Below, piece after piece: positions 21,229-45,052 of a DNA stretch of 64,000 bases. Location: positions 1-64,000 of the forward strand of contig CAIMFH010000159.1 of NCBI GenBank assembly GCA_903840265.1, given 5' to 3'. Position numbers and translations under genes: made by a program. Source of the stretch: an uncultured Schlesneria sp. Its GTDB lineage: Bacteria > Planctomycetota > Planctomycetia > Planctomycetales > Planctomycetaceae. The notes under the pieces were generated by a model that was not told the origin of the DNA, searched no databases, and saw only the letters and a program-made list of their open reading frames with translations. Within the stretch, counting starts at the first letter, position 1. Each line of letters starts with the position of its first letter.

Positions 21229-22398
21229 TCACCTCACTTCAACTTGACCGTACATCAGTTCGCCTGAAGCAATCGTGGCTTCGATCTCAAGACGATCGTG
21301 CTCTGGAGGGATCCGAAAGATCATCAGGTCAGCCAACGAGCCGCGGCGTAGACGCACGACTTCAGATCCCAGTAACTTCGCTGGGTTCTTGCTTGCCATG
21401 TCGATTGCCTCTTTCAGCGAGACACCGGCGAACTCGATCGCCTTCGCCACGCATGTATCGGTTCCCTGGGCTGATCCGGCCAGCAGTTCTCGTTGACCGG
21501 CGACGACAAGTTTGCCGTTCTCCAAAATTTCACTACGTCCCAGTTTGCTCTCGTAGATGCCCGGTGGGCAACCCGCCCATCCCGCGGCATCGCACGTCAT
21601 GATGGTGCGTCGCGTGGACTTCACTTTGATGAACGTACGGACCAATGACGCGGGCAGGTGATGACCATCGACGATCAAGCTTGCGACCAGTCGTGGATCA
21701 GAGAGTTGCTCGAAAATATAGTTGCGATGTCGATGAATCATCGCGTGCGCGCCATTGCCAAGATGCGTGCTGAGCTCCGCGCCGGCTTCGACGGCAGCGC
21801 TCACTTGTTCGGGTGTCGCCGCTGTGTGACCGATCGCGATCACGACACCCGCGGTAACCGCGTGCCGGATAAAATCCAGGGCTCCATCCACTTCGGGCGC
21901 GATCGTGACCAGTTTGATGCGGTTTCCGGAGATCTCCTGCAACTTCTGAAATTCAGCCCAGTCGGCTGCTCGCACGTGTTCTTTGGGATGCGCACCGCGG
22001 GGACCATCTTCGGATGAAATATACGGGCCTTCAAGATGGCAACCACAAACCATGCGGTCCGCTGCCGGATTAGATTCGCAGGCCGCGCGGATCGCGCCGA
22101 AACCCGCGGACAGTCCTTCAAACGAGTTCGTGATCAACGTGGGACAGAGCCGCGTCACGCCATGTCGATAGAATGGCTTCAAGGTTTTCAACACCTCGCT
22201 GCTGGTCAGCTCATCGTTGCTGAACCAGATCCCGCCATAGCCGTTCACCTGCAGATCGAATAGTGCTGGGGCGACAAACGGCCACTCTGCCAGCGAGGAT
22301 GTCGGCCATGCCGGCACCACGGAGCGAATGCGATCCCCCTGGACAGTAATTTGCAGCGGTTCGCCATTTTCGAAACTGCGAGCGTGCAGCGTAAACAT
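21229..22398 (-). CDS. nagA: N-acetylglucosamine-6-phosphate deacetylase
   Basis: This 389-residue amidohydrolase removes the acetyl group from GlcNAc-6-phosphate in amino-sugar catabolism or wall recycling. The N-terminus has FDLQVNGYGG, as in E. coli-type NagA, without the HxH motif. Metal and catalytic positions are E123 (CHLEGPYIS), H191 (IGHTAAT), H212 (STHLGNGAHAM) and D270 (MTCDAAG). It lies 24 bp downstream of the amidase on the same strand and ends the operon. No nagB is in the window. The MTCDAAGWAG segment departs from the usual TDA pattern, so the exact substrate deserves mild caution. Confidence 0.85.
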   Translation of the reverse strand: MFTLHARSFENGEPLQITVQGDRIRSVVPAWPTSSLAEWPFVAPALFDLQVNGYGGIWFSNDELTSSEVLKTLKPFYRHGVTRLCPTLITNSFEGLSAGFGAIRAACESNPAADRMVCGCHLEGPYISSEDGPRGAHPKEHVRAADWAEFQKLQEISGNRIKLVTIAPEVDGALDFIRHAVTAGVVIAIGHTAATPEQVSAAVEAGAELSTHLGNGAHAMIHRHRNYIFEQLSDPRLVASLIVDGHHLPASLVRTFIKVKSTRRTIMTCDAAGWAGCPPGIYESKLGRSEILENGKLVVAGQRELLAGSAQGTDTCVAKAIEFAGVSLKEAIDMASKNPAKLLGSEVVRLRRGSLADLMIFRIPPEHDRLEIEATIASGELMYGQVEVR

Positions 22399-22422
22399 TG
22401 TTTCTGATCCTCTGTGAAGACT

Positions 22423-23844
22423 CTATTCAATCACCGGCGTCCGCTTGTGCCAGTCGGTTCGTTGTTGAAAGGCGACGGCAGCTTCGAGAATCGAGTTCTC
22501 AGACAAAGCGCGACTCGTAAATTCTAATCCTGTCGGCAGGCCCCGCGCTCCGAAGCCGTTTGGAACTGTAATTCCCGGCAATCCAGCCGCATTCGCCGCG
22601 CCGCTGATCTCGGTGCTGACAAAACCGCGCGACCATTCGGTAAACTTTTGAGTGATCGGCCCCGCCTCGGTATTCAGCGTCGGCGTCACGATTGCATCGA
22701 AGTCTTTGATCGCGGTGTCGACTTCTTTCTGGATCCGACCACGAATTCGCAGAGCGTTGATGTAATCTCGCGCGGGAATCAACAGATTTGAGAAGCCACC
22801 CCAGCGATCCTCGGGAGCCGACAGTTCCCACACATCGCCGCTAGTCATGAAATCCCCGAATGCCGCACCCATCTCGCAAGAGATGATCGTCGACGCCACG
22901 ACTGCATAAGGGAGATCCGGAAGTTTGATCTCGTCGATGGTGCCGATCTGCTTGAGGACTTCCAGCGAACTTTCATAGTTCTTGCGGACCTCGGGTTCCA
23001 GTCTATCAAAGTCGACATCCAGCGTGGCGAATCGAAAGCGACGACCATCTGAAGCATTTGGTCTAACCTGCGCAGCGCGATCATACTTCCAAGGCGAAGA
23101 AATGCTGGTTGGATCGAGCGGATCGGGACCGGCGATCGCATTTAAGACCAGCCCACAATCGTCGGCCGTGCGGCACATGGGGCCGAGCTTATCCATCGTC
23201 CAACTCAAGGCCATTGCGCCATAACGGCTGACCCTTCCGTAAGTGGGGCGCAGGCCCGCGATGCCGTTGTAGCCCGACGGGGTCATGATCGAGCCCCATG
23301 TCTCGGAACCGATCGCAAACGGAATCAGCCCCGCACCGACAGCCGATCCAGGGCCAGACGACGATCCTCCCGACCAGCAGGTTTTGTCCCACGCATTCAG
23401 TCCCGGACCGGTGAAGCTGGCATTGGCTTGCTTGTACCCAAAGCCACCTGCGAGTTCGACCATCGACAATTTGGCACAGAGCACCGCCCCAGCCGCTCGC
23501 AGTCGACCGACCACCGTAGCGTCTTCATCGATCAATTGATCTTTCAGCGGGGCCGCTCCCCAAGAGGTGGGAATTCCTTTCGTGGCCAGCAAGTCTTTGA
23601 CCGCGTATGGAATCCCATGCAATAACCCCCGATCCTGACCCCGCTTGAGTTCTTCATCGGCCTGCCTGGCCTGGTCCAAGGCAATGTCGTGAGTCACGCG
23701 AACTACGGCGTTGAACGTTGGCCCGTGTTTCTGTAGGCGATCAAGAAAATACTTCGCCAGTTGCACCGAAGTCACGGTTCCCGAGCGCAGGTCCGCCGCC
23801 AGTTCTCGGATCGATGCGAATGCACGCGAAGTCGTATCAGGCAT
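22423..23844 (-). CDS. Amidase signature family enzyme
   Basis: This 473-residue amidase has the Ser-cisSer-Lys triad: the lysine in YAVKDLLATKG, the Gly/Ser-rich [18 protein letters not shown], and the catalytic serine in GSETWGSIMTPSGYNGIAGLRP. A GatA-like start (IRELAADLRSGTVTSVQLAKYFLDRL) supports the ATG at 23844; the longer frame upstream overlaps the neighbouring gene. The family hydrolyses amides, from indoleacetamide to Glu-tRNA(Gln). The absence of gatB/gatC nearby and the accessory context suggest a catabolic amidase rather than the aminoacyl-tRNA amidotransferase. It lies 16 bp after the Tat-signal protein gene, and nagA follows. The substrate is unknown. Confidence 0.87.
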   Translation of the reverse strand: MPDTTSRAFASIRELAADLRSGTVTSVQLAKYFLDRLQKHGPTFNAVVRVTHDIALDQARQADEELKRGQDRGLLHGIPYAVKDLLATKGIPTSWGAAPLKDQLIDEDATVVGRLRAAGAVLCAKLSMVELAGGFGYKQANASFTGPGLNAWDKTCWSGGSSSGPGSAVGAGLIPFAIGSETWGSIMTPSGYNGIAGLRPTYGRVSRYGAMALSWTMDKLGPMCRTADDCGLVLNAIAGPDPLDPTSISSPWKYDRAAQVRPNASDGRRFRFATLDVDFDRLEPEVRKNYESSLEVLKQIGTIDEIKLPDLPYAVVASTIISCEMGAAFGDFMTSGDVWELSAPEDRWGGFSNLLIPARDYINALRIRGRIQKEVDTAIKDFDAIVTPTLNTEAGPITQKFTEWSRGFVSTEISGAANAAGLPGITVPNGFGARGLPTGLEFTSRALSENSILEAAVAFQQRTDWHKRTPVIE

Positions 23845-23860
23845 GGGAGCGGACTCGCAC

Positions 23861-24214
23861 TTAGCTGTTTGGCGGAGTGGTAGCGCGATAGGCGCTGTAC
23901 ACGAACGCCGGCTCATCGGAGTTGCGCAGCGGGAATTCGGCAAGAGCCCGTCCGCGAGCAACGTCCCCACGAATGTCGCGGAAGATGCCTTGGATCGCCA
24001 CCTCGTCCAGACGCTCGTTGGGATACCGGCGAACCAGGTAGGTCAGCAGCAGCACCTCAGGTGGCGGTGGTGCCTCTGTCGCGACCGGCGCCGGATCCTC
24101 CGGCAACTTTGGAGCAGGTGGTGTACCGGGACCGGCAGCAACGGGAACTGCTCCGATGCTCGCAGAAACCCCCACTCCGATGACAAGTTGCCGAGTGAAA
24201 TCGCGTCGCTGCAT
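23861..24214 (-). CDS. Small Tat-exported protein, function unknown
   Basis: This 117-residue protein starts with a twin-arginine signal, MQRRDFTRQLVIGVGVSAS (RRDFTRQ), ending near VPVAAG. A proline-rich linker (PPAPKLPEDPAPVATEAPPPPE) follows, then a compact domain containing LLTYLVRRYPNERLDEVAIQGIFRDIRGDVARGRALAEFPL. The arrangement resembles small exported subunits that travel folded with a partner enzyme. The next gene is a cytoplasmic-looking amidase, so partnership is only suggested by the 16-bp spacing. I chose the ATG at 24214 because it places RR at residues 3-4. I do not recognise the family. Confidence 0.7.
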   Translation of the reverse strand: MQRRDFTRQLVIGVGVSASIGAVPVAAGPGTPPAPKLPEDPAPVATEAPPPPEVLLLTYLVRRYPNERLDEVAIQGIFRDIRGDVARGRALAEFPLRNSDEPAFVYSAYRATTPPNS

Positions 24215-24490
24215 TCGACAGTTGTCGTCTTCGTCCTGGCGCATCGGAAATACCCCAGCTCGGAATCGCGAAATCGATGACTGCACATGTGAGTGTGGCC
24301 AGTTGAGCTTAGTCGCCCCCTGAATTCAATCGCAGATTGAGATGTCGCGCACTTCGACTGCCATGTCGATCTCTCCGACGCGATTGAGCGCCGTCGGATA
24401 ATCTCGGTGCAGAAATCTAACGGAAAAGTTAGTTGAACATCTGTGGTACGCAAGTTGCCAGCGAATCATGCGTGAATATTACTTTTCCTT

Positions 24491-24496
24491 TATAAT
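24491..24496 (+). promoter_or_regulatory. Candidate -10 element upstream of the DUF1559 gene
   Basis: A perfect TATAAT lies 20 bp before the ATG at 24517, inside an AT-rich stretch that contrasts with its surroundings. No good -35 box is found at 16-18 bp. Confidence 0.35.
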
Positions 24497-24516
24497 TCCG
24501 AATCGGAACGAATCTG

Positions 24517-25509
24517 ATGAAAGTGCGCAACCGCCACCGTGGATTTACTTTAATCGAACTGCTGGTCGTGATCGCGATCATTGCAGTGTTGATCGCGCTG
24601 TTGCTGCCAGCCGTGCAGCAGGCCCGAGAAGCAGCCCGGCGGACACAGTGCAAAAACAATCTCAAGCAGATCGGATTGAGCGTCCACAACTATCTCGACG
24701 TCTTCGGCCAGGTCCCTCCCAGCGCGACGCTGCTATCTGGAGTCGCCAGCAGTTCCTGGTCGGTTCACGGCCGCATTCTGCCGTATCTCGACCAAGGCAA
24801 CTTGTTCAATGTGATCGATCTCTCGAAGGGGTGGAGCGGTCAGATGGCGATCGATGGACTGCGGATTCCGACGTACGTCTGTCCCAGCGATGCGAAGGCG
24901 GGCACAACCCGAGACGACACTAGCCCGAAACTGTGTCCCACGACCTATGGAATGAATTACGGCACCTGGTTCGTCTGGGATCCTGCGACCGGAAAGGGTG
25001 GCGACGGGATGTTCTATCCCAATGCCAGAATCGGATTTAGCGCGATCACAGATGGGTCGAGCAACACGTTGATGGTGTCGGAAGTGAAGGCGTGGAGCCC
25101 CTATCACCGCAACGTTCCTCCGGCGTCACCGGCAATTCCCGGCACTTCTTCACTGGTTGCAGCGAATATGACTGCCTCGGGTGGAAACGCCAAAAACACG
25201 GAGCATACCGAATGGGCCAACGGCCAAGTCCATCATTCGGGATTCACTTCCACGCTCAACCCCAATGCCAAAGTCTCGTGTACTGTGAGTGGCACCACTT
25301 ACGACCAGTGCGACTACAACAGTTGGCAAGAAGGAACCCTTCCCGCCACCCCCAGCTACGCGGCGATCACGTCACGAAGCTACCACACCGGTTGCGTGAA
25401 CTCGGCGTTAATGGACGGCACCGTGCGCACGTTTAGCGAAAATATTGATCTGAATGTCTGGCGAGCCCTCAGCACGCGTGCGGGAGGCGAAGTCGTGGGT
25501 GAATTCTGA
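24517..25509 (+). CDS. DUF1559 pilin-like protein with prepilin signal
   Basis: This 330-residue protein begins with a class III/IV-type prepilin leader: basic MKVRNRHRG, a predicted cut after G9, then [20 protein letters not shown]. The DUF1559 hallmark [28 protein letters not shown] follows. The C-terminal part has the usual [16 protein letters not shown] motif and ends with [24 protein letters not shown]. These proteins occur in dozens to hundreds of copies in planctomycetes and are thought to be surface pseudopilins; their role is unresolved. A prepilin peptidase is present in the window at 38743, but nothing shows that it processes this protein. Confidence 0.93.
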
Positions 25510-25660
25510 TCGACCCGTCGATACAACTGTCATCTGCAGTCGGCCTTTAAGATTTCTCCGCGCGAGTTGATCGGACCTCGCGCCAGCGGTTGCGACGACT
25601 GAGAGAAGTAGCTAAGCTTCGTCCTTGCAGGCTGCTTGCCATTTGGCAAAGCAGTCACTC

Positions 25661-25734
<74 letters not shown>

Positions 25735-26410
25735 TTTTCTTAAATGCGAAGCCAGTAAAGCTTTCAGCTTCCTGAGCTTCGCGTCTTTCATGGGTGTGGG
25801 TTACTCGGTTCCCCCACTAATGAGAATTCTCTGTAGTCGGGCTGTTTTGTATACACGTCCGCTGCCGCGGGTTGTGCAGAACCCATGGCACCGTAGAACT
25901 TCTCTCTCGTCCAGACGGCTCCAATTTCCGTCGATGCGTGGCTGCAGGTAGCCGCAGTATTTCCTCGAGCGCCAAGGCAGTCGAGCTGGCGCTTGACCGC
26001 ACGATTGCGGACTCGCAACTCAACTTTAACGATCCTTCTCGGGACCCTTGAGGAGCGCCCCCCCCGCACAGTTCGGGGATGCGATTGATCCAATCATGGT
26101 CGTGGCAATGGCGTACGAATGACATCAGGATCCAAGTATGCTGTTGACGATCTTGGGAGATCTCTTTTCTTATCGGGTCATCACCCGCTAGCGAGCGATC
26201 CTTCCTGTAGCAGATGGCATTCGCATATGTTCAGCAAAGTGAACACCGTCTTGCTGTCCGCCCGGCGCGGCCTGCCAACCGAACGGCGAATCCGCTCGTC
26301 AAAGCATTGATCATTACTAGGAAACAAGGCAGGATTGAGGGTTCAATTAAATCGGCGGTTCCAATCTGAAGTCAGCATAACATGTCGGTTCGCAGCGGGA
26401 TGTTTCGCCA
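25735..26410. other. Long intergenic region, possible gene relic
   Basis: This 676-bp stretch separates tRNA-Arg from the accessory block. An imperfect stem, GCGAAGC (25746-25752) with GCTTCGC (25776-25782), lies just after the tRNA and may terminate it. The minus strand from 26125 to 25788 has two overlapping open frames of about 100 codons with broken, low-complexity translations. This could be a decayed gene, but I cannot name it. No intact gene is supported. Confidence 0.35.
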
Positions 26411-26971
26411 ATGATCATTGCAAGATGTCCGGTATGCTCGCACGAGATCAAAGCCCCGGAGTCGTTCGTTGGCAAAAAGGTGCGATGCAAATCCGAAGAG
26501 TGCGGTGAGGTATTCATTGTCACCGGAGCACCGGCTTCGCTTGAAGCCTTGCCGCAACCGCCCGTCGAGTTGACGATTCCTGAAGCACCGGCGTTTATGA
26601 CGCATGGCTTTGCCGCAGAAACGGGAGAAAATGAAGCAGAACCGACAATTCCAGCTGCCGCGGATGTTCGTTACCCCAACCTGCAGAAATATCTTCACTG
26701 GGGCAGGATCGTCGCGATGACTCAACTGGGTGTGGCCGTGACCATCTCATGCACGATACTGCTGCTCTCGTTCATTTATCCCTTTTCCCAGAAATACAGC
26801 TTCCAAGGAGGCATGTTTGTAATCCTGATAGGAGCAGCAGTCAGCGCTCTGACCGGACTTGCAGGCTACCTTATATTTGTATTCTCTATGGCCGGAATTG
26901 AATTTGTACATGTGATACTCGATATTGAATCAAACACGCGTACCCCTCAATACCACAACCCGGAAGGATGA
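26411..26971 (+). CDS. Zinc-ribbon membrane protein, first gene of the GTPase/protease block
   Basis: This 186-residue protein begins ARCPVCSHEIKAPESFVGKKVRCKSEECGEVF. That is a zinc ribbon with one CxxC pair and a second C-x4-C pair, like the MJ0042-type finger common in planctomycete membrane proteins. After an acidic linker it has two membrane segments (about residues 105-130 and 138-165). The zinc ribbon is therefore probably cytoplasmic. It lies 235 bp before the GTPase gene on the same strand, so it may belong to the block or be an independent neighbour. Function unknown. Confidence 0.7.
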   Translation: MIIARCPVCSHEIKAPESFVGKKVRCKSEECGEVFIVTGAPASLEALPQPPVELTIPEAPAFMTHGFAAETGENEAEPTIPAAADVRYPNLQKYLHWGRIVAMTQLGVAVTISCTILLLSFIYPFSQKYSFQGGMFVILIGAAVSALTGLAGYLIFVFSMAGIEFVHVILDIESNTRTPQYHNPEG

Positions 26972-27205
26972 TGCGATATCGCTCCCGTTCGATCGACGGA
27001 CATGGCCGATGCACTCCCTGCCTGTGGCGTTCACTGTCGAATGCAGTATCGGATCGGAACCCCGTGGTTGGCGTCCGAGTCGAACTGTGATGGAATTGGC
27101 AGGGCTCACCCCTTAGGGTGTGGCGAAGGCAGATCAGGTTTAAGTGGCGAAGGGAATTCCGCCGGGGGAAACTCGGACAAATGCGAATAACTCGATCGGA
27201 TTCTC

Positions 27206-28510
27206 ATGATTTCTTCTTCGTCAAAATCTCCGGCACTCCTTTCTCGCGTCACTTGTCCGCAGTGTTTCAGCAAGTTTTTGCCTGAAGATATTCTGTGGAT
27301 CAGCGAGCATCAGGATTTGTCGATTTTGGATAACCGTGTCCCACAAGGACAACTGCGGTTTCTGCCGAGCCGATTCACCCCTCAGGCCGAGGCATTGGAC
27401 CCTCGCGGCATGCGGTGCCATCGGCTGGCGTGTCCGACGTGCCACCTCGAGATTCCCCGGCCACTGCTGGAAATGGAGCCCTACTTCCTTTCCGTGCTGG
27501 GTAGCCCTGGCAGCGGCAAAAGCTATTTCCTCGCTGCAATGACTCGGCAGCTGAGACGGCTCTTGCCCATCAAGTTTGCGACCGCATTTGCTGATGCCGA
27601 TGCGACGATCAACCTGCGGCTGAAGAAATTCGAATCCGATCTGTTCGCCAACCGCAACCCGGATCAGCTTCAGGAACTGCGTGAGCTAATCGGCAAGACG
27701 CAACTGGAAGGCGACGGATACTCGGCAGTGAACTTTGGTACGCAATCGGTCAGCTACGCGTTACCGTTCGTCTTCAATCTTCGCTTAGACGACCAACATC
27801 CGAACGTGGCGCGTCGCGGAGTCGGACGCACCATTTGTTTGTTTGACAACGCGGGTGAGCACTTTCTACCCGGGATGGATTCTTCCAAAGCCCCCGTCAC
27901 TAGGCATTTGGCCGAATCCAGGATGCTGTTCTATGTCTTTGATCCACTGCAGGACAGCCGCTTCCGTAGGTTAGACAAGTCCCTTGAGTCTGGCACAGTC
28001 GATAAATCGCATCTAGGTTCGCAGGAAGGAGTCTTTGGCGAGGCCGCGACTCGAATTCGACGATACGCCGGTCTCTCGACAACTCAAAAGTATCCCAAAC
28101 CCGTGGCGGTCGTCGTGACCAAATGCGACCGGTGGATGCACCTTATTTACAGTTCGATTCAGGATCGAAGTCCGATCGTGCCGTGGACGATGACAGATTC
28201 CGATGGCGTCGCTCATCAAACTCACGCCGTGGATGTCGGTCTGGTTGATTACATCTCCGACGGAATCCGCGAGCTGTTGATTTCTACTTGTGCGGAAGTG
28301 GTGGGGGCTGTTGAGAGTTTCTCCGATTCCGTCCGCTACATCCCTGTCAGCGCCACCGGTTGGAACACGGACGTCGACTCCCTGACTGGCCAGGCGGTCA
28401 TGCGCCCTGGAGAAGCAGAACCCTTCTGGGCAGAAATTCCGTTCCTGTACGCGTTGGCCAGCAGTTCACTGGGGCTCGTCCCGAAGATCCGAAACGTTTA
28501 TGAGGAATAA
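27206..28510 (+). CDS. Zinc-ribbon P-loop GTPase, double-GTPase (DO-GTPase2)-like
   Basis: This 434-residue protein has an N-terminal zinc ribbon built from TCPQCFSKFLP and ACPTCHLEIP. A TRAFAC-like GTPase core follows: Walker A G99-S-P-G-S-G-K-S106, a switch-II-like D214-N-A-G217 in CLFDNAGEHF, and a G4-type motif T305-K-C-D308 at the end of a hydrophobic strand (PVAVVVTKCD). TKxD in place of NKxD is a known variant. The zinc ribbon fused to such a core resembles the double-GTPase proteins described with GAP1 components in bacterial conflict systems, and the next gene encodes a GAP1-N2-like protein. The core is cytoplasmic with no membrane segment. The GTPase call is firm; the system assignment is inference from family memory and context. 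Confidence 0.75.
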   Translation: MISSSSKSPALLSRVTCPQCFSKFLPEDILWISEHQDLSILDNRVPQGQLRFLPSRFTPQAEALDPRGMRCHRLACPTCHLEIPRPLLEMEPYFLSVLGSPGSGKSYFLAAMTRQLRRLLPIKFATAFADADATINLRLKKFESDLFANRNPDQLQELRELIGKTQLEGDGYSAVNFGTQSVSYALPFVFNLRLDDQHPNVARRGVGRTICLFDNAGEHFLPGMDSSKAPVTRHLAESRMLFYVFDPLQDSRFRRLDKSLESGTVDKSHLGSQEGVFGEAATRIRRYAGLSTTQKYPKPVAVVVTKCDRWMHLIYSSIQDRSPIVPWTMTDSDGVAHQTHAVDVGLVDYISDGIRELLISTCAEVVGAVESFSDSVRYIPVSATGWNTDVDSLTGQAVMRPGEAEPFWAEIPFLYALASSSLGLVPKIRNVYEE

Positions 28511-28644
28511 CAGCAGCTTCATCGCTCAAAGATGGCAGGACATCAAAGATCTTTCGATCGTTTTCGACTGGCGACGACATCACAGTCAACGCAATATACC
28601 TGGCACAATGCTCAGCAACGGTGCATGACCGTTAGGGATGCAAG

Positions 28645-31281
28645 ATGAGTTTCGAAATCCTCTACACTTCCGCTCCCTCGGGATTGCGTACTGGTAGCAG
28701 CGGATACTGCACCGTTCTGAGCAGCCGTGGAGTTCCGGCATCGACTGTGGAGTTGTTGGAATCGTTGAGCGGTTATCGGCATCTGTTTCCGCTTGGACAT
28801 CCGCAAGCGCAGCTGAACCCGGTAAATTTCGGCCACTATGTCTTGCGAATCAGCGGTCGCCGGGAACATGTGTTGTCGCGCGTCTCTGACTTCAAATTGG
28901 ACTACACGGGTCGGTCAAACAAATTGGCACACCACGTCGTGGTGGATGAGATCGCGGCCGTTCCCGCTGGCCCCGCCTGGCTGTTGAAGCGTCCCGGCTG
29001 GATCCGCGACAACTGGAACGGGGACGTTGGGCTCTCTGACGGCAATCGGATTCCCGCGCCCGAGGTCCGCGCGGCGGCTCCCTGCTCTGCCTGGGCGCGT
29101 GTCATTGGTGATGCCGGATGGGCAGGCGTCCTGGCAGAATCGTTCCTGGCAGATCCGAATCGAAAGGTCTTTCTGATCTATCAGCCTGGAACTGACGTGC
29201 TGGCCCTGTTCGATGAAGCCATCGCATTGTTACCCGAATCCAAGCGATGGGACGTGACCTTTGCGACGTTTGGAGCGGCCCTGCCAGCGACAGTCGATTG
29301 CTTGTGGAATGGAGTTGTGGCGGGCTCTGCAGAAGTCGATCAAAGCCGCAAATTCATCAACGCGCTGCGGATTGATTTGACGGCAAAGAATGCGATAGCA
29401 CAAGGCGGGACATTGGTGACTGCCGCCCGCACGGGAATCACATCGGCTCCGCCGTTGTCAGTGAGTCGAATGGCGTCGACTCCGAAATTGCCGAAGAACA
29501 CAGTCGATCGGGAAACGTTAGAGGATCTCCCGGAATCCACACTCACTCTGAACAGGCCGGCCGGTCCGCGCGATCGAAAGATCCCACCGTCGCTGCCGTC
29601 CGCCCGCGCCAGATCCGCCACTCAGACCGATGCCGGCCTGATGCGGTACATCACGGGCGCCATTATTGGTGGTGCTGTCATCGCGATCATCGTGTCAGTC
29701 GTTCTCATGTCTCCGAAACCCGAACCGGCTGACACGAATCACCGCTTGGCCGATCTAAACTCTGCGGAAAATCGAACACCAATCACCGGTGTTCAAGGAA
29801 TCTCACCCCCCGCATCCGTGCCAGGAACTGGGGATGCTTCCCGTCAAACGCCAACAATGCCGACGACACCCGATACTGCGAATGATGATCCCGACAAGGC
29901 GGCGACACCGCCAGCAACCGTTCAGTTTTCTGGCGATCCGCCTGCGAATATTCCGCCACCCGACCCTCAAGCTGCGGGACATGAAAAGAAGCCCGAAGTT
30001 GCGAAAGTCGTCAAGACCAAGGTCTCCAATAAGCCATTGGCCATCTGCACGAAGAAACGCGTCAAAATCGAGAATGGAGATCACTGGCGGACGAGTTTTA
30101 TATTCCCGGCCAAATTGAAGAGCGAGGCGAAGGGCATTCGCTTTCTGGCACCCGTCGACGCAAATAACAAGGTTGTTGCCGGCTTTGCCAGCGCCACTGC
30201 CAAAGTTGAAGCAGAACCCCTGAACGAGAATTCGGTGGTTCTGGAGATCAAGAAAGAAGGAAAACAGTGGGACAACAATCATGCCTTCAAGGTGTCGATC
30301 CCAACCGCGAGGGATTCGGCCGACAACCGCGAATCGATTGACCTTCAATCAGAGTCCGAAGTCGTCATGACGGGTCCGAAGCTCGACAAGGTGCTTGCAT
30401 TCGCATTTTCTGGTTGTGTTGTGGAGGGTGAACGCCCCAATCTGGTGCTGTTCCACGCGCCCCCGCTCCAATGGCCAGGCCCGCTGGCATTGCATAAAGC
30501 GGGAAAAGTCACTCAGTCAGAGGGGAAAGCAGAATTGTACGAAACTCCCCTGCTTGGCAGTCCAGACGGCAACGGGGACAAAGATGTGCGGGACAACGCC
30601 GATCACCTGAAGAATGATCTTTTGAAGTTCGTCCTGGAATGTCCCAATCTGTTGGCTATTCACGATCTTGTCGTCACGATCCCCAACGACGGAGAAATTT
30701 TGTGGGGAGGTACGCGAAATGAAAGAGGTGAACCCTTAATCATTCTTCCCGAGGAAAAGTTGGGGAGCATGATCACCTTGACCTTCTCGGTGACCGCGAA
30801 ACCCGAATCAAAGTCGGATGGTTCTCCCAAGCTCCGTGTGACGATCTCGCCGACCAGAGAAGACCTCAAAAACTCGGTCACCAAGTCCATAGAAATGTGT
30901 CACAAAGAATGGGGAACTTTATTCAGTGTGACCAACGCTCCTGACAAGAGGCTGGCGAATTCCAAGACCGAAGAATCGCTGGATGAACTTGATCGCGGGG
31001 TGTCGCCGAAATCAGACGAATCGCAGTCGCCAGTGCAGATGAAAGCCAAGCACCTGATTGAAGAGAAAAGAAAACTGGTGCGACAGTCCAGGCAAATTGA
31101 AGACTTCTACGAACAGGGACTGGCGAAGATGAAGATCGCCTCTGCCAGAGTTGGTCATTCGCTCATGGAGCTGGAGCATCCTGAACATCGTCGATTCCAA
31201 GTGGATCTGGTTGTGATCGGGACAGCTTCGACGGAAATTGATTACCTCGGCTGGAACGCTGCTGGGAAAACAAAGAAATAA
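28645..31281 (+). CDS. GAP1-N2-like membrane protein with large outer domain
   Basis: This protein has 878 residues. The first 150 carry a pattern I associate with the GTPase-associated protein 1 N2 domain: ILYTSAPSGLRTGSSGYCTV, LSGYRHLFPLGHPQ, then LDYTGRSNKLAHHVVVD. A further alpha/beta region to about residue 260 (FDEAIALLPESKRWDVTFATFGAALP) also fits GAP1. A polar linker leads to one membrane segment (about residues 335-355, TGAIIGGAVIAIIVSVVLM). A Pro/Thr-rich stalk and about 450 residues of beta-rich and helical sequence follow. The N-terminal domain should be cytoplasmic next to the GTPase. It begins 134 bp after the GTPase gene and ends 15 bp before the next gene, so an operon is likely. 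Confidence 0.72.
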   Translation: MSFEILYTSAPSGLRTGSSGYCTVLSSRGVPASTVELLESLSGYRHLFPLGHPQAQLNPVNFGHYVLRISGRREHVLSRVSDFKLDYTGRSNKLAHHVVVDEIAAVPAGPAWLLKRPGWIRDNWNGDVGLSDGNRIPAPEVRAAAPCSAWARVIGDAGWAGVLAESFLADPNRKVFLIYQPGTDVLALFDEAIALLPESKRWDVTFATFGAALPATVDCLWNGVVAGSAEVDQSRKFINALRIDLTAKNAIAQGGTLVTAARTGITSAPPLSVSRMASTPKLPKNTVDRETLEDLPESTLTLNRPAGPRDRKIPPSLPSARARSATQTDAGLMRYITGAIIGGAVIAIIVSVVLMSPKPEPADTNHRLADLNSAENRTPITGVQGISPPASVPGTGDASRQTPTMPTTPDTANDDPDKAATPPATVQFSGDPPANIPPPDPQAAGHEKKPEVAKVVKTKVSNKPLAICTKKRVKIENGDHWRTSFIFPAKLKSEAKGIRFLAPVDANNKVVAGFASATAKVEAEPLNENSVVLEIKKEGKQWDNNHAFKVSIPTARDSADNRESIDLQSESEVVMTGPKLDKVLAFAFSGCVVEGERPNLVLFHAPPLQWPGPLALHKAGKVTQSEGKAELYETPLLGSPDGNGDKDVRDNADHLKNDLLKFVLECPNLLAIHDLVVTIPNDGEILWGGTRNERGEPLIILPEEKLGSMITLTFSVTAKPESKSDGSPKLRVTISPTREDLKNSVTKSIEMCHKEWGTLFSVTNAPDKRLANSKTEESLDELDRGVSPKSDESQSPVQMKAKHLIEEKRKLVRQSRQIEDFYEQGLAKMKIASARVGHSLMELEHPEHRRFQVDLVVIGTASTEIDYLGWNAAGKTKK

Positions 31282-31296
31282 TCAGGGCCATTCTCC

Positions 31297-34257
31297 ATGT
31301 TCCAACTGCAATCCATCATCGACCGAATCAGAATCGTCCTTGCTCGGGAGCGATACGAAGTGTCTCCCGAGATCAAGGAGTTAGCCAGCGATTTCAGTGA
31401 CCAGACTCGCCAGCTCAACGAACGTCTGCGGCGTTGCGGTGAGTACCTGCGGCAAGGATTGCGATCGGAAGCGATTCACGAAGCCGAAACGGAACCGAGG
31501 CTATTGGATTGTGTCTCGGTCTTGGAAAGCTTTTCCGAGGAAGAACGAAACGCTTGGAAGGATGTGTGTGAGTTCCTGGACCTGCCAATCGGGGAACCAC
31601 TGCTTCGCAATGTCGCCATCATGGTGGATGAGGCCTACGCGGAGCAGGCGCCGCTGGAAAACCTGATGCGTCAGCACCGTAAGCTGGCTTTGCAACGGGC
31701 GCCACTGCCGATCCGCCTGAGATTGTTGCGCAAGCTCGCACAGGCAGACTCCAATGCCGAACATTGGACCGAGGATCTGACTCGCTTCGAAGAAGTTCGA
31801 CACGAACAGATCGCGCAAGAGGCGAGATCGCAGAAGAAGGTCATGTCGGTTGTCGCATTGGACGAACTGCTGACGGAGGCTAGTTCCAAGGAATGGATCG
31901 TTCCGCCTCCTCCAAAGATCGTGTCTTCAATTCGCACGATGCGACGTGAGGCCCTCCGTGGCGCTGCGCGGCAAAAACTGGCAGAGATCGAGCGTGAATT
32001 AAGCGAGGCCCATTCGGACAAGGACTACCAGAAGGGACGCACCGCATACGAACAGTGGCAGAGGGCCTTGCCCGTTGCCGAACTACCGGCTGACGATCCA
32101 CTGATCACTCGCACCCTGGCGGCATTGGCCTGGTGTGAACAGGAACAGACGCTGGAATCCGGCGAGACCGTCTGGCAGAACCACATTCACACGGTCGAAC
32201 TGGCACTCGAAAGTCCTCGTACCGACCAGCAATCGCTGGCGCGCCTCGTAGAACAAACGGGGCGAATGGGACGCGCGCTACCCGATCCGCTCGGTACACG
32301 CCTGACGGACAGATTGCGCGGATTGCGGGTCCAGCGAGGCCGTCGGCGAATCTTGGTCGGAGCGACCGCCTGCACGGGGGCCATTGCCATCGTTGCGATG
32401 GTCGTCATGATCATTCAATGGTCCAACGAAGTCTCGCAACGGAAAGAGATCACCAAACGCATCTACCAGATGACCGAACGAGGAGAAATAGAGCAGGCCG
32501 CGGAACTGTCGAAACAGTTTGATGCCCGTTGGCAGCACGTGCCCGATTGGCTTGATGCCAAGGCCAGCATCATGACCGCCCAGAAAGCTCTGGCGGATCG
32601 CGAACGCCGGTATGAGGCCTTGGTGTCGCAGATCGAGGCGGTTTCTGACACCGATGAGAAGGGCTTTGAGCGACTGGTTCGCGAAACAGAAGACCACGTC
32701 AACACACCACCCGTTAACGATGACTTGAAGCAGCGATTCGACCAGCGCAAGCGAATCCTGACTGCCGAACGTCAGAAAAAGAAGAACAAGCTTGAAGAAA
32801 GCCTGGCTGGCCGAGTAGCCGTTCAGGAATCAGAAATCAATTCGCTGGAAAACAAGTTCCTGGAGATGGAGTTAGCGGAATTCACGGCGATGCGCGACCG
32901 CATTCAAGGAGCCTTGACTGTATTGGCCGACTCCCCTGGTCTACCCAAGAACCTGGCAGACTCGGTCAACCTCCATCGATCTCGGCTGGACGACATTGAT
33001 CGAAAGAACTCCAAGGCGATTCGCCGCAAGCAGTTGTTTGCAGAACTGAGTAAGCATTCCAGAGTCCCTCACAACTCGCCCGCGCCGGGGGTTGACGGCT
33101 ACATCACCTCGTTGACCAAAGGTGCAGAGTCCCTGATCAAGTCGGACACGCTAGTCGAAGAATTGCAGAAGTCATCGCAGGAAGCGCCAGCTTGGAAGGC
33201 CGTCTACGCCGTGCAACAGGGGCTTCCTTCCGATCCAGCATTGATGTTCCCGATTGATCCACAAAAGCTCGCGTCGCGCAAGAAGGAGATCGTCCGCCTG
33301 ATCGAGCAACACCAGATGTGTCCGTTGCAGGATGTCCTGAAGACGTATTCCGCTCTGTTGAAAACGCTGGAAGAACGTCAAAACGCCGTGGAAACGTTTC
33401 GCAAGTACTTGGCCACCGAAGAAATGAACGGTCTGTTCGTCGTCTACTCGGTCACAACTCCACGACCGTATTACGTGAATGAGTCCGCGGAATTGAAATC
33501 GGGTAGCTTCTTTCGATGGTGCCGGCGCAACGAGAGCAGCCAAGTCAAACTCCCTTTTTTCAAGCTGAAAAATTCCAAGCCGGAAGATGCTCCACAGAAA
33601 CAGTTGGCAGAGAAACTCAGAGTTATTCTGAAAGAAATCGCGTATGACAACTGGAGTGATATCTGTCGGCGGCTTGTTGAAACGACACTGGAAGAACGCA
33701 ACCCGATTGCTTCAGATGTTGACCCACTTCTAAAACTTGAGATCGTGAACCGGATCAACGACATGGCGGTGAAAGGCAATTCCGATTGGAATACACAGAA
33801 GCGATTCCAGGACTTCGCGGAGCCACTGCAAGCTGCCAGAATCAAGTACGCCAATGCCGACTGGGCAGATCCCGAGGATAAGAATCTTGAAAAATATCGG
33901 GATACCGTCTCGGGGCTGGAACGCGGTGCCAAGCTGAATTCCGCCAATGTTTTCGCCACTTCGGAGGTGCCGTTTAAGGATCTGGCGAAGAAACTTCAAG
34001 ACCGCTATGAAGCGATCGGATTCATGTGGAAATTGGATGAACAGGCACCGCAAATCCAAATCCCGTTGAACCCTGGCAAGCCGTACCAGATCCTGGCCAG
34101 CGTTCCTCTGGAGAATGCCACTGCGACCGCCAACCTGCATCGTTTTGAAGTCGTGGGCGACATCAACTCGAAAGGGCAGATCGAGCCGAAACAGGACTCG
34201 TTGTTGAAATACTTCAGAGCTGGCCGTCTGTTGTTTGTCAAAACATCAAACGACTAG
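31297..34257 (+). CDS. Large coiled-coil membrane protein
   Basis: This 986-residue protein is dominated by charged helices. About 345 N-terminal residues form a helical, Arg/Glu-rich cytoplasmic region (DQTRQLNERLRRCGEYLRQGLRSEAIHEAE). A single membrane segment lies at about residues 350-373 (ILVGATACTGAIAIVAMVVMII). About 600 residues of coiled coil follow, including KKKNKLEESLAGRVAVQESEI and repeated KQF/RKR heptads, ending in a smaller globular C-terminal part. No catalytic motif is visible. It lies 15 bp after the GAP1-like gene and 51 bp before the protease gene. A scaffolding or force-transducing role is plausible but inferred from shape alone. Confidence 0.72.
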   Translation: MFQLQSIIDRIRIVLARERYEVSPEIKELASDFSDQTRQLNERLRRCGEYLRQGLRSEAIHEAETEPRLLDCVSVLESFSEEERNAWKDVCEFLDLPIGEPLLRNVAIMVDEAYAEQAPLENLMRQHRKLALQRAPLPIRLRLLRKLAQADSNAEHWTEDLTRFEEVRHEQIAQEARSQKKVMSVVALDELLTEASSKEWIVPPPPKIVSSIRTMRREALRGAARQKLAEIERELSEAHSDKDYQKGRTAYEQWQRALPVAELPADDPLITRTLAALAWCEQEQTLESGETVWQNHIHTVELALESPRTDQQSLARLVEQTGRMGRALPDPLGTRLTDRLRGLRVQRGRRRILVGATACTGAIAIVAMVVMIIQWSNEVSQRKEITKRIYQMTERGEIEQAAELSKQFDARWQHVPDWLDAKASIMTAQKALADRERRYEALVSQIEAVSDTDEKGFERLVRETEDHVNTPPVNDDLKQRFDQRKRILTAERQKKKNKLEESLAGRVAVQESEINSLENKFLEMELAEFTAMRDRIQGALTVLADSPGLPKNLADSVNLHRSRLDDIDRKNSKAIRRKQLFAELSKHSRVPHNSPAPGVDGYITSLTKGAESLIKSDTLVEELQKSSQEAPAWKAVYAVQQGLPSDPALMFPIDPQKLASRKKEIVRLIEQHQMCPLQDVLKTYSALLKTLEERQNAVETFRKYLATEEMNGLFVVYSVTTPRPYYVNESAELKSGSFFRWCRRNESSQVKLPFFKLKNSKPEDAPQKQLAEKLRVILKEIAYDNWSDICRRLVETTLEERNPIASDVDPLLKLEIVNRINDMAVKGNSDWNTQKRFQDFAEPLQAARIKYANADWADPEDKNLEKYRDTVSGLERGAKLNSANVFATSEVPFKDLAKKLQDRYEAIGFMWKLDEQAPQIQIPLNPGKPYQILASVPLENATATANLHRFEVVGDINSKGQIEPKQDSLLKYFRAGRLLFVKTSND

Positions 34258-34308
34258 GCGCAACTTCAAAACCGCAAGTCTACTGCTTCCCAGGCATTCG
34301 GGGCTGTC

Positions 34309-35967
34309 ATGGATCAAAATCGATATTACATCCGGTTGCGTGGAAAGACTCGCGGTCCCTATACGATCGAGCAATTGCGTCGACTCGTGTCTCGCGGCCA
34401 GTTCAGTCGAATGTACCAGGTCTCGACCGACAAGCTGGCATGGATTTCCGCCGCCGATCTGCGCGAAGTCTTCGCTATAGCTCAACCGGTGCCGACCGGA
34501 CCCCCGTCCCACGCATTCTCGCTGGCCGAGCAATGGTATTACGCGTCGGGCGATCAAAGACTCGGCCCCGTCTCACGCGATGAATTGCTGATGTCGCTTT
34601 CTGGAGGGCACCTCCCCGGTTCGGCTCTCGTCTGGCGCGAGGGCCTGTCGGACTGGCTTCCCGCCGAAATTGTCTTCGCGGAAGTGATTTCCTCGCCAAC
34701 TCTGCGCAGAAAATCAAAGGCACCCACTTTCTGGGCCGCAGTCTCACTTCTACTCGCCGCGGCCCTGGGGATCGGAACCGTCTTCTGGTGGCAGAACGAA
34801 GGTCGTCGAACACAACAAATTAACCGCAACGACGTTTCTCTCGCGGTAACCGACGGCGATACAAAAACTCCGAATGTTGTGAATACCGTTCCGGTGCCAG
34901 CTGAAGTCAAACCTGTCGAAGTGAAGCCAGCTGAAGTGACAACGGTTGAGGTCAAACCAGTTGAAGTCAAGCCAGCTGAAGCCCAACCAGTTGAAGTCAA
35001 AGAGAACAGCGGCGATGTTAAGAAGACGAGTGCGGTCAATGCTGTTGCGGAGTCCGGTGAAATCAGATCTGTGGAGGTCAAAGACAAGAGCGTCGTCTCG
35101 GTGATCAATGAGAGCGTCGGAATGGTTGGTCTCTATTTAAGTATCGATATGCACGATGGTGTGCGCCATGAAAAATGGATGGGGAACGGCAGTTGCTTCC
35201 TGGTCAATCGACAGGGACATGCCATTACCAACCGACACGTCGTGAAAGAGCATAAAGAATGGCAAAACGCAACAGGTAAGGGACGTATCGAAAGGCTGGT
35301 TCGGGCGCTATTGTCCGGCACCGATCTCACTGATTCGGTGACCAAAAAACAAATCGCGGCTATCGAAAAGCGGATGTCGCGCATCGCAAAGATTGCTCCT
35401 CATTGTGTGGTGTACTTTGCTGGCAAAGGATTTCCAGCGGAAGTTCACTATGTCAGTGGTCGCTTTGACATGGCCGTATTGAAAATTGAAGGGTTGCCTC
35501 CGTCCCCGTGGTTTGCCTTGAGTGCCGACAATGAATGTCCTCAAACTTCTCCGGTATTTGCATTTGGATTTCCCGGAACTTCCCAGGAAGCTGTGGCCGA
35601 TTCGGAGAAGGCATTCGAGATTGCCAGACAGCTAGGATCTTCGATAGACGACCTGCTCTTCGGAACGGACGATCATCGCAATGCAGTCAAATCAGGTTCA
35701 TTCGAGGTGTCGACGACGAGTGGAGAAGTTGAGCAGATTCAAGAGGAGACTGGCGGTATTTTCCATGCGAAGCATAGCGCCAGAATTAGCTGGGGGAACT
35801 CGGGTGGACCGCTGGTGCTTCGGGAAGGGAAGCCCGGAACCGTCTTTGGGATCAACACTCAATATATTCCCAAAGGGGTTGCTCCTGTTCCGGTGGCATT
35901 TCCGATCGCACAGATGAAAAAAGAGCTTGAACAAGATGCCAAAGTTCCAGATTTGAACTGGCGGTGA
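34309..35967 (+). CDS. Tandem-GYF, membrane-anchored trypsin-like serine protease
   Basis: This 552-residue protein has a clear modular order. GYF-type domain 1 (residues 5-55, YYIRLRGKTRGPYTIEQLRRLV) and GYF-type domain 2 (residues 72-120, WYYASGDQRLGPVSRDELL) are cytoplasmic. One membrane segment follows (residues 140-162), then a stalk of PVEVKPAEV-type repeats (residues 196-232). The C-terminal trypsin-like domain has a complete triad: H310 in TNRHVV, D387 in RFDMAVLKI and S498 in WGNSGGPL. The topology puts the protease outside the membrane and the peptide-binding GYF domains inside. It is the last gene of the block and the likely effector. HtrA-type PDZ domains are absent. Confidence 0.85.
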   Translation: MDQNRYYIRLRGKTRGPYTIEQLRRLVSRGQFSRMYQVSTDKLAWISAADLREVFAIAQPVPTGPPSHAFSLAEQWYYASGDQRLGPVSRDELLMSLSGGHLPGSALVWREGLSDWLPAEIVFAEVISSPTLRRKSKAPTFWAAVSLLLAAALGIGTVFWWQNEGRRTQQINRNDVSLAVTDGDTKTPNVVNTVPVPAEVKPVEVKPAEVTTVEVKPVEVKPAEAQPVEVKENSGDVKKTSAVNAVAESGEIRSVEVKDKSVVSVINESVGMVGLYLSIDMHDGVRHEKWMGNGSCFLVNRQGHAITNRHVVKEHKEWQNATGKGRIERLVRALLSGTDLTDSVTKKQIAAIEKRMSRIAKIAPHCVVYFAGKGFPAEVHYVSGRFDMAVLKIEGLPPSPWFALSADNECPQTSPVFAFGFPGTSQEAVADSEKAFEIARQLGSSIDDLLFGTDDHRNAVKSGSFEVSTTSGEVEQIQEETGGIFHAKHSARISWGNSGGPLVLREGKPGTVFGINTQYIPKGVAPVPVAFPIAQMKKELEQDAKVPDLNWR

Positions 35968-36005: not shown

Positions 36006-37652
36006 TCAAAAAGGATAACCCAAATCGCTAGAACCCTCACCCGATTCTGGGAGACGAGGATTCAAGAACTGAGCGAGGCTGTTCGTGAACGACTCGCATT
36101 TCGCCGACAGGTCAGGACGGATCGACACGACATCGGCCAGCGATTCGGCGAAGTGAGTCAACGTCGGTTCGATGAGAGCCTCGGCGAGAGACGATTCGGA
36201 ATTTTGCAAAAGTTCACGCAGGTTACCGAAATCGCGATTGAGCTGATCGATGAATCGCTGTGCCTCCACGGCACTAGATTTACTCTTGAGGTTGACGATC
36301 AACTCGGCCAGGTGACCGCCGATACCGAATAGGCGGACACCCAGCGGCACGTCGTCGGCGTCTCCCAAGGAAAAGCTGGACGACCAGACTGAGTCTCTTT
36401 CCTCGCGTCCGAAGCCGGAAACCACCAAGCCCAGGCGTTTGCGTTCCTCCTGTTCGGCTGCAAAACGCCGATGGAATTCCTCCCGTTCGCGTTCTGTCGT
36501 CTCCCATTCCTCGCGCGTGCGATGGCGGTAGTCAAAGGCGAAGTCGTCATCCATGTTGCAGCCGTCCAAGTGCCAGAATACAGGTCCGGGCATGTCAGCC
36601 ATCATTTGGCAACACGGGCAGTCGGGGTCGACGATCGCTTCATGACCGCACACCCCTTCGGGGATTCGAGCGCGCTCGCGGGCGATGATGGAACGCGGCC
36701 TGCGTCCATGAAATTCCGGGTCAGGGCTGTCGAGCCATTCGTCCCGCTCGCATTCCAATCGAGGAACTTCGTTCGCGAGAAAATCACCGACGGTCAGCGA
36801 TTGCGGCCCATCCGCAATGGGTTGTACTTTTTCCAATTCAACGAGCCGGTCCCAGCAAGACCAGAGCAGCTCGCGAACCAGTTCATAGTAGAGGACAACT
36901 TCATGCGTACCGAAGCCACCATAGCGGAACGCGAACGACGACTCATTTAGTCCTGGCGGACATTCTCGTAGCAGCGACCATCGTTCCGACTGATCCTGCA
37001 GATCCCACTCGAGGTGATTGTGCCGCTCAAGCACCAGCTCGCGGGGGCAGGCTCCGTCCAAGTCGTCACGCGGCGTCAACAGCCAATTCGCATGAATGCC
37101 TTTGATTGTGTCGTCCACGACAAACGCCGTCGTTTTCCGCCGAGTATAGGCTGCGAAGGTCTCGCGTGCGACAAACTCGCTCAGAGGCCGACCGTAAAAG
37201 ACCGCGCGCGCATCAAGTGTTGACCGTGCGGCTCGTTCTCGTCGCCGCGTTGCTGCCAAAACGGACCACTGGCAACGATCGCTTGTGAACAACCAATCGT
37301 CCGCCAAGTGATAGCGCAGCCACGTATCTGTGCTGCATTTCCCGTCGTGATAATCGATTTCACCGATTGGTCCAGGCGACGAATACGTGGAATCGACAAG
37401 CACCAGCCGAGCGACGAGGTCGATGATAACAAGCCCGGCGTCATAGGGTTCTTCGTTGAGTCCGGAACGAAGATTCGAGAAGAAACGGCGATTCGGACTG
37501 CGTTTCTCGAAGCGGGCAAACGCGGTTTCCAGTTCCGCCAGTGTGACCGGGTCGGCGCTGAGCGCTGCGATTGCGCGGTCGGCCGAACTCCCGTGAACGG
37601 TACCAGACCAGTCGTGTCCGGCTTCCCGGACGACCAAACGAACTTCGCTCAT
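36006..37652 (-). CDS. Conserved-type protein of unknown function, partner of the 137-residue protein
   Basis: This 548-residue cytoplasmic-looking protein has no signal peptide or membrane segment. It contains a two-cysteine cluster, DPDCPCCQMMADMPGPVFWHLDGCNMDDDFAFDY, followed by charged helices (REEWETTEREREEFHRRFAAEQEERKRL). Its N-terminal half is rich in Trp, Arg and acidic residues (RCQWSVLAATRRRERAARST). I have a faint memory of the DGCNMDDDFAF segment in other planctomycete proteins but cannot name a family. Its start overlaps the stop of the upstream 137-residue gene by four bases (ATGA). It converges on the protease gene at 35967 with a 38-bp gap. Confidence 0.7.
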   Translation of the reverse strand: MSEVRLVVREAGHDWSGTVHGSSADRAIAALSADPVTLAELETAFARFEKRSPNRRFFSNLRSGLNEEPYDAGLVIIDLVARLVLVDSTYSSPGPIGEIDYHDGKCSTDTWLRYHLADDWLFTSDRCQWSVLAATRRRERAARSTLDARAVFYGRPLSEFVARETFAAYTRRKTTAFVVDDTIKGIHANWLLTPRDDLDGACPRELVLERHNHLEWDLQDQSERWSLLRECPPGLNESSFAFRYGGFGTHEVVLYYELVRELLWSCWDRLVELEKVQPIADGPQSLTVGDFLANEVPRLECERDEWLDSPDPEFHGRRPRSIIARERARIPEGVCGHEAIVDPDCPCCQMMADMPGPVFWHLDGCNMDDDFAFDYRHRTREEWETTEREREEFHRRFAAEQEERKRLGLVVSGFGREERDSVWSSSFSLGDADDVPLGVRLFGIGGHLAELIVNLKSKSSAVEAQRFIDQLNRDFGNLRELLQNSESSLAEALIEPTLTHFAESLADVVSIRPDLSAKCESFTNSLAQFLNPRLPESGEGSSDLGYPF

Positions 37653-42833: not shown

Positions 42834-43820
42834 CTACCGTTCGCACGAACTGGTAGCAACACTCTGCGTTCTGGCGGCTTCCGTAAGCAGTTGAGCGAGA
42901 GTCCATCGCTCAGTTGCCACGCCAGCCTGAACAGCAGGCGTCGTCTTGATCGTGGCGTGCTTCCGGCACCAGTTGTACCAAGCGAAGTAGAGGCCCAGCA
43001 TGGCGTCATGGTTACGGATCGACTTGGAATGGCCGTTCGTCAGCCGAGTAAATCGCCGCAAGGTCATGCGGGTAGTCAGATTGAACCGTTCCATTCGGCT
43101 GGTGCCAATCTCCGCTTCGTGGACGTTACCGCAGATCACGGTTTTCGTGACGCTGCTTATCGCTCCAGGTGAGTACCGGACCTGCGCTGAGTTGCCGCTG
43201 GCGTTCTGGAAGTTCTTGATGATCTGAGCGTAGTCCACATTCTGATTGAACGTGGCAGGAATGGCGGACGTGTACGACGTAAAGCCGTCTGTGTTGATCG
43301 TAGGCCGCCCACTGACAGACTTGAACAGTTTGTCGATGAATCGCCAAGTATCGTTCTGGCTGCGTTCTCCGGCGTGCCAGCAGAGCAGCAACTTGGTGTC
43401 ACGGTCGATGGCGGTGAACACATAGCGGTCGCCGCAGATCGTCGTATCCTTGCCGAGTCGTTCGGCTGTCTTACGCTTGCAGAGCACAAACGCCCACTGC
43501 TCATCGCATTCGATGTACGCGGCGGGGTGTTTTACGATGCTGGATTCCATGAATCGTCGGCATGACTCGCCAACCTCAATCATGACCGACAGTATGCAGT
43601 CTCGGTTGATGCCGGTGAGGCGTTCGCAGGATCGTACCGACATCCCCTCCAGTAGCATGGATAGAACGCGTACCGTGTCCTCCATACTGACCTGTCTACC
43701 CGCTAGGGCGTGTGGTTCAGTGAACTTCTTCCGACAGGCAGAGCAGCGGTATCGCTGATAGCCGTTCCCGTCCTTCCCGCATTTGACTGTGGATGGCTCC
43801 GTACAGTGTGGGCAACGCAT
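42834..43820 (-). CDS. IS1-family-like transposase, single reading frame
   Basis: This 328-residue transposase has an N-terminal zinc finger (C3-PHC6 and C26-SAC29) with QRYRCSACRKKF, a helix-turn-helix region (residues 44-80), and a DDE catalytic core: D106 in ECDEQWAF, D178 in NTDGFTSY and E244 in RMERFNLTTR. The segment ERFNLTTRMTLRRFTRLTNGHSKS followed by HDAMLGLYFAWYNWCR corresponds to the C-terminus of IS1 InsB. In IS1 the InsA and InsB parts are joined by frameshifting; here they are one frame, as in several divergent IS1 groups. The terminal repeats and target duplication agree. The gene is intact, so the element may still be mobile. Confidence 0.88.
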   Translation of the reverse strand: MRCPHCTEPSTVKCGKDGNGYQRYRCSACRKKFTEPHALAGRQVSMEDTVRVLSMLLEGMSVRSCERLTGINRDCILSVMIEVGESCRRFMESSIVKHPAAYIECDEQWAFVLCKRKTAERLGKDTTICGDRYVFTAIDRDTKLLLCWHAGERSQNDTWRFIDKLFKSVSGRPTINTDGFTSYTSAIPATFNQNVDYAQIIKNFQNASGNSAQVRYSPGAISSVTKTVICGNVHEAEIGTSRMERFNLTTRMTLRRFTRLTNGHSKSIRNHDAMLGLYFAWYNWCRKHATIKTTPAVQAGVATERWTLAQLLTEAARTQSVATSSCER

Positions 43821-44912: not shown

Positions 44913-44993
44913 CGCTGATCTGCTCCTCGTTAAAGAAAAGGAGACCGAGCAATCGCGGTGATCACTCAGTCTTGCGTCGTCAAAAACGAAAAA

Positions 44994-45019
44994 AGCCCCG
45001 ACCGGTATGGTGCGGGGCT
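44994..45019 (-). terminator. Terminator near the right end of the element
   Basis: AGCCCCG (44994-45000) pairs with CGGGGCT (45013-45019). On the minus strand TTTTTTCGTTTTTG follows. It would stop outside transcription before the HTH gene, or act as its leader attenuator. Confidence 0.65.
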
Positions 45020-45052
45020 GAAGAGTCGAATCGAGTTGTTCAGCGGCTCACA

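Follow-up and report, generated by a model that had tools for sequence, protein, structure and literature searches.

Systems built on a DO-GTPase and a GAP1-N2 protein were predicted by Kaur, Burroughs, Iyer, and Aravind in 2020, and the accessible part of their paper (PMC7159879) describes a planctomycete form with paired GYF domains fused to a trypsin. We analyzed a 64,000-nucleotide stretch of DNA from an uncultured Schlesneria sp. (contig CAIMFH010000159.1, positions 1 to 64,000; hereafter, the window), in which five same-strand open reading frames (ORFs) at 26411-35967, encoding proteins of 186, 434, 878, 986, and 552 amino acids (aa), were confirmed as listed in an initial annotation made from the sequence alone. 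These five neighboring planctomycete genes resemble a mobile membrane apparatus whose inner switch, powered by GTP, controls an outer protease. The initial annotation did not know the combination as a characterized system; its type is that of the planctomycete form above. It also left the picture incomplete, as 21 of 32 such cores across the phylum have a MotA/ExbB-like gene downstream.

The window resembles the systems of Kaur et al., as far as their paper could be accessed, in that a zinc-ribbon DO-GTPase is encoded upstream of a GAP1 protein that has both N2 and M domains plus a transmembrane (TM) helix C-terminal to them. In contrast, the FNIII component expected in GAP1-N2 systems was not found in the five proteins (Pfam, E <= 1), with the outer part of GAP1 modeled too poorly to judge, and a long one-TM helical protein such as that encoded by ORF4 is not met with in the accessible description. 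The main text of PMC7159879 contains no occurrence of MotA, ExbB, TolQ, Zorya, longin, or DENN. Our literature searches found no experimental test of a DO-GTPase/GAP1-N2 system and recognized no paper in which DO-GTPase or GAP1 is connected with MotA/TolR-like genes.

In MglA/MglB and AglR/AglQ/AglS of Myxococcus xanthus, a MotA-like ring and two TolR/MotB-like proteins are acted on by a GTPase, as may also occur in the relatives described below; MglA binds directly to the gliding motor and is the likely mediator of motor activation (accessible parts of PMC9120999 and PMC9389320). Unlike the cassette, the Myxococcus machine uses other GTPase and regulator families, and the window has no motor.

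Conserved gene order and motor genes in relatives

Neighborhoods were collected from 59 genomes of relatives (13 neighborhoods) and 391 genomes of the phylum, 47 of which carried GAP1-N2 (40 stretches covering 58 places); these and the window, 54 sequences in total, were profiled with models built from the window family. No (11) or weak (4) window-type GAP1 matches were obtained in 15 of the 53 neighborhoods, which represent other or more distant GAP1-N2 forms, and neither CC (the ORF4 type) nor MotA-like matches were found in those 15, one of which (L038) is cut by a contig end. The 42 strong GAP1 proteins were reduced to 32 loci by removing three tandem upstream copies and seven with less than 6 kb downstream; L031 was excluded as a marginal match, and genes running off contigs are undercounted in the tallies. 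Alignments A1, A4, and A5 comprised 26 of 41, 20 of 22, and 28 of 53 profile hits, respectively, hand-picked for completeness.

The GTPase gene was located upstream of GAP1 in 30 of the 32 loci, and downstream were found the CC gene (31), a gene for a GYF protein (23), and the MotA/ExbB-like gene (21). The association of ORFs 2-4 exceeds chance. Of the gene order proposed in the initial annotation, the ORFs 2-4 part recurs and a GYF gene is the usual fourth neighbor, while ORF1 homologues close to the GTPase gene were restricted to three other loci (L018, L026, and L041) among the 54 sequences. For ORFs 2-4, none of the outcomes named beforehand as speaking against a unit (no domain match, no conserved order, genes lying apart) was observed.

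Two TolR-like genes were found in 19 of the 21 MotA-bearing loci, and the stretch ends earlier in the remaining two. The MotA-like protein of L022 matched PF01618 (E 5.5e-10), and GFIGT and a TT pair were retained in the MotA-like proteins (20 aligned rows). In 26 aligned rows of the TolR-like paralogues, the sole invariant residue was an Asp where the TM helix begins; the proton-binding Asp of MotB/TolR sits at a comparable place (PMC9389320, accessible part). At the sequence level, the relatives have both components expected of a 5:2 proton motor, i.e., a MotA/ExbB/TolQ ring protein and a TolR-like axle with a TM Asp. Motor loci of the Planctomycetota-Verrucomicrobiota-Chlamydiota (PVC) group are similar in having paired, dissimilar TolR-like genes beside a TolQ-like gene (accessible part of PMC12204202), whereas the word GTPase is absent from that paper. 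The MotA-like proteins matched ZorA models weakly (best E 2.5e-6), a likeness to Zorya at the superfamily level only, and no ZorA/ZorB match was found among the five window proteins (E <= 1).

A close MotA-like gene (E < 1e-50) was present in 22 of the 391 genomes. GAP1-N2 was found in 19 of these 22 genomes compared with 28 of the 369 others; in one of the 19, G310, the match lies under the Pfam cut-off. One of the three motor genomes outside the GAP1-N2 set has CC and motor genes at a contig start, and the other two belong to one genus and have motor genes with no GTPase or GAP1 detected by the profiles. Motor genes in G419 and G280 lie on separate small contigs, and contig breaks account for some absences.

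Other arrangements were also observed. L094 and L095 (G192 and G107, of one genus) carry a motor triplet with no DO-GTPase or GAP1 detectable by the window-family profiles. In L044, L045, and L049, two tandem GAP1 genes that are near-identical over N+M lie around the GTPase gene, and an additional gene with a single GYF domain separates the MotA-like gene from the TolR-like ones.

No motor genes adjoin the cassette in the window, and no close MotA-like copy was found in its genome. Elsewhere in this genome (L091, G000:C176, 7903-12744), two TolR-like genes accompany a distant MotA-like gene, with no GTPase or GAP1 nearby; this set perhaps resembles the PVC motor loci of PMC12204202.

Proteins of the cassette

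All five genes are located on the + strand. ORF2 (434 aa; 27206..28510) encodes a DO-GTPase with two CxxC pairs, a P-loop (99-106), DNAGE (214-218), and TKCD (305-308). It matched DO-GTPase2 (PF19993) with E 1.6e-5 and 25.1 bits, slightly below the Pfam cut-off of 27, and 25 of the 28 GTPases of alignment A5 (window included) matched PF19993 at E <= 0.01. The GTPase motifs read from the sequence at the outset held up, as G99, G104, K105, D214-E218, K306, and D308 are invariant in the 28 aligned GTPases; also invariant are the four Cys, and E218 is the conserved Walker B Glu. ORF2 thus combines DO-GTPase family membership, zinc ribbon(s), and the Walker B Glu.

ORF3 (878 aa; 28645..31281) encodes the GAP1 protein, which consists of GAP1-N2 (1-120), GAP1-M (147-246), a linker (~250-330), a TM helix (~345), and an outer part (359-878). 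The N-terminus, which had been taken for GAP1-N2 by eye, matched PF20013 (E 2.3e-25), and the M domain matched PF20014 (E 5.1e-16); with both domains and a position downstream of the GTPase gene, ORF3 belongs to the GAP1 proteins of such systems. In the AlphaFold2 (AF2) model, the head was confident and the remainder low-confidence, and a fold comparison suggests that the modeled head may be longin-DENN-like. The ratio of nonsynonymous to synonymous substitution rates was 0.08 in the head (1-250) versus 0.30 in the outer part (359-878), for one genome pair (with the congener G012).

ORF4 (CC, 986 aa; 31297..34257) encodes a conserved helical cytoplasmic domain (1-344), one TM helix, and a long, helical outer region followed by a mixed domain at the C-terminus. 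No Pfam family matched it at E <= 0.01, and in a 29-member alignment, five Pfam families each matched a single member. The mean pLDDT of its AF2 model was 84.2.

ORF5 (552 aa; 34309..35967) encodes two inner GYF_2 domains (PF14237, twice, E 5.4e-21), a TM helix (~147), a repeat-rich linker, and an outer trypsin-like protease (Trypsin_2, PF13365, E 3e-16). Its catalytic triad (H310, D387, and S498) is intact and is kept in four of four GYF-trypsin proteins found, window included. Both the tandem GYF domains and the triad of the initial annotation stand. ORF5 has the paired GYF domains fused to trypsin that mark the planctomycete variant. ORF5 also gave a weak GltJ profile match (E 5.4e-6, far below the cut-off), which covers a GYF domain. 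The zinc ribbon and GYF domain of GltJ bind MglA and MglB. In the DNA, 15-bp tandem repeats (34902-35006) encode the VEVKPAE-like linker that joins the TM helix of ORF5 to its protease.

Of the GYF-protease, the GYF protein is a recurrent partner and the trypsin part is confined to one clade: the four GYF-trypsin carriers (window included) and the contig-cut L018 group together with support of 100/100. Motor genes lie directly behind in L041 and L047, and not in L040 (same genome as L047) or the window. The C-terminal part of the GYF protein varies among loci (trypsin, TM2 with a zinc ribbon, DUF4190, FHA-ABC transporter, and T2SSE ATPase). Fourth-position GYF fusions lacking trypsin, to FHA-FHA-ABC transporter or T2SSE-type ATPases, were observed at L020 (10388-13333), L028 (639-2543), and L039 (9682-11673).

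ORF1 (Z, 186 aa; 26411..26971) encodes an N-terminal zinc ribbon and two TM helices (hydropathy). The ribbon assignment was supported in part, by a Zn_ribbon_5 match (E 0.0097) under the Pfam cut-off. A gap of 234 bases lies between ORF1 and ORF2. ORF1 falls within the block homologous to G012; it is probably an accessory membrane protein of the unit.

Genomic setting of the cassette

A matching block is found in G012 (L018), where window positions 26235-27012, 27192-28525, and 28589-31896 are matched with 86-92% DNA identity, the G012 contig ending inside ORF4. By blastn, the common block starts with a non-coding segment (26235..26410, + strand), which likely holds the promoter and marks where the unit begins on the left. 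The G012 flank upstream of the block is non-homologous to the window except for short scattered matches, and the left flank of the window is found on another G012 contig, where it is collinear over 21575-25734 and diverges from the base after the 3' end of a tRNA-Arg (TCG; 25661..25734, + strand; ARAGORN and Rfam), itself identical in G012. Because this synteny break at the 3' base of the tRNA resembles an insertion there, the tRNA-Arg 3' end is a possible integration site left of the unit. As the segment from ORF1 through the beginning of ORF4 stands in a different genomic setting in G012, the cassette probably moves as a unit. Counting the window's own genome, the GAP1 gene was found in 7 of the 15 genomes surveyed in the genus, whereas only 2 of these 15 matched the gene directly downstream of the cassette (36006-37652) at E <= 1e-30.

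Elsewhere in the window, a phage-type integrase gene (20-1405) adjoins a tRNA-Ser (1538-1625) at the left contig end, a possible second island. An insertion sequence-type transposase gene (42834-43820) and Flp/Tad pilus-like genes for RcpC, a secretin, and a ParA-like protein with a receiver domain (44972-49567) were also observed.

A proposed switch with GYF-coupled output and its alternatives

The best overall explanation, to which we assign a probability of roughly 0.45, is a GTPase-GAP1 switch cassette with GYF-coupled output. It plausibly unites all five genes in a single cassette that belongs to a planctomycete-specific form of the GAP1-N2 DO-GTPase systems. A zinc-ribbon GTPase and a GAP1 protein head the cassette, and GAP1, CC, and the GYF protein (ORFs 3, 4, and 5) each have the plan of an inner domain, one TM helix, and an outer part, which a hydropathy script confirmed for three of the five proteins as first described. 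In the proposed mechanism, the GTPase and the possibly longin-DENN-like GAP1 head would form a membrane-bound switch, and the one TM helix that GAP1 and CC each possess would relay an outer stimulus or transmit the GTP state to the outer parts. The switch would be coupled by GYF adaptors to a machine, which in the relatives is probably a proton-channel motor of a MotA/ExbB-like ring protein and two TolR-like axle proteins. Since such a motor follows in two thirds of the examined relatives, the most likely role of the switch is to gate an envelope machine, by analogy with MglA acting on the AglRQS gliding motor. As the window lacks a motor and its GYF arm bears an outer trypsin, the output here is probably switched periplasmic proteolysis; GAP1 may sense inside while the protease cuts outside.

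GYF domains bind proline-rich peptides, and the cytoplasmic GAP1 linker is proline-rich, with at least two PP dipeptides in 18 of 18 tandem-GYF loci versus 6 of 15 others (33 rows, the truncated L028 retained). The tandem GYF domains may dock on this linker, so that the switch would place or release the attached enzyme. The linker as a candidate GYF docking site is a lead only, because correction for kinship leaves two supported pairs, of the same direction or neutral. Three further negative results bear on parts of this picture: against the motor assignment in the relatives, the ExbD family was not matched by the axle proteins among the 25 of 127 Pfam families listed; against the DO-GTPase assignment, a six-frame search of the window's own genome gave no PF19993 match at E <= 0.001; and against an insertion at the tRNA-Arg, no second copy of the tRNA end (attachment repeat) was found on the contig.

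Kaur et al. proposed and argued for a conflict (anti-invader) system (PMC7159879, accessible part), in which the GTPase-GAP1 pair is a threshold switch, invaders are sensed by the outer parts, which vary, and the effectors that limit infection are the trypsin or membrane proteins. Consistent with this are the patchy presence in the genus, the different placement in G012 with the synteny break at the tRNA-Arg, the swapping of domains at the fourth position (trypsin, TM2, ABC transporter with FHA, T2SSE ATPase, and DUF4190), and the faster evolution of the outer GAP1 part than of its head. However, PADLOC defense models, run on the five cassette proteins but not on the neighboring genes, gave no match for ORFs 1, 3, and 4 and no convincing one for ORF2 (HerA over the P-loop, E 0.0018), ORF5 matched RT-Protease_XI weakly over its protease part only (E 1.1e-6), the commonest further partner is a motor triplet with no toxin-like domain, and no phage test of such a system was found in the literature searches. 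We regard a defensive role as somewhat unlikely. More doubtful is envelope-stress signaling, in which the outer protease would be a DegS/HtrA-like regulator trimming a membrane protein under tuning by the GTPase. The Trypsin_2 domain shares the trypsin fold and the motif GNSGGP with HtrA/DegP/DegS and matched their profiles (E 2.1e-9 to 3.1e-5, all far under the curated cut-offs), and a DO-GTPase has been reported in pspF operons (PMC11237479, accessible part). Unlike those proteases, ORF5 has inner tandem GYF domains and no PDZ domain, none being found in the five proteins (Pfam, E <= 1), and the protease form is limited to one clade. That unrelated genes are adjacent by chance is very improbable. 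The distance of ORF1 from ORF2 and its few homologues could be read in this way, whereas the GTPase and CC genes flank GAP1 in loci from many families, and the block is common to the window and G012; for ORFs 2-4, chance adjacency was ruled out by the recurring GTPase-GAP1-CC order.

Beyond the switch cassette itself, we tentatively propose that, in Planctomycetota, the DO-GTPase/GAP1-N2 pair acts as the controlling head of a proton motor that spans the envelope and whose axle consists of two proteins. The GTPase and a longin-DENN-like regulator would gate this MotA/TolR-type machine by way of GYF adaptors, in a parallel to MglA/MglB-AglRQS gliding made of different parts; the window cassette would be a derived form driving an outer protease instead of, or after losing, the motor. 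The papers found treat DO-GTPase/GAP1 systems solely as predicted conflict systems, and the motor partner suggests a new role for the switch. If the recurring planctomycete partner is a proton motor with an essential Asp, this would provide a concrete GTPase switch of an envelope motor, or here of a protease, that can be tested by point mutation. It would also connect the fold of GAP1 with the longin-DENN proteins that regulate eukaryotic GTPases, and a second GTPase-motor pairing would stand alongside the Myxococcus gliding machine.

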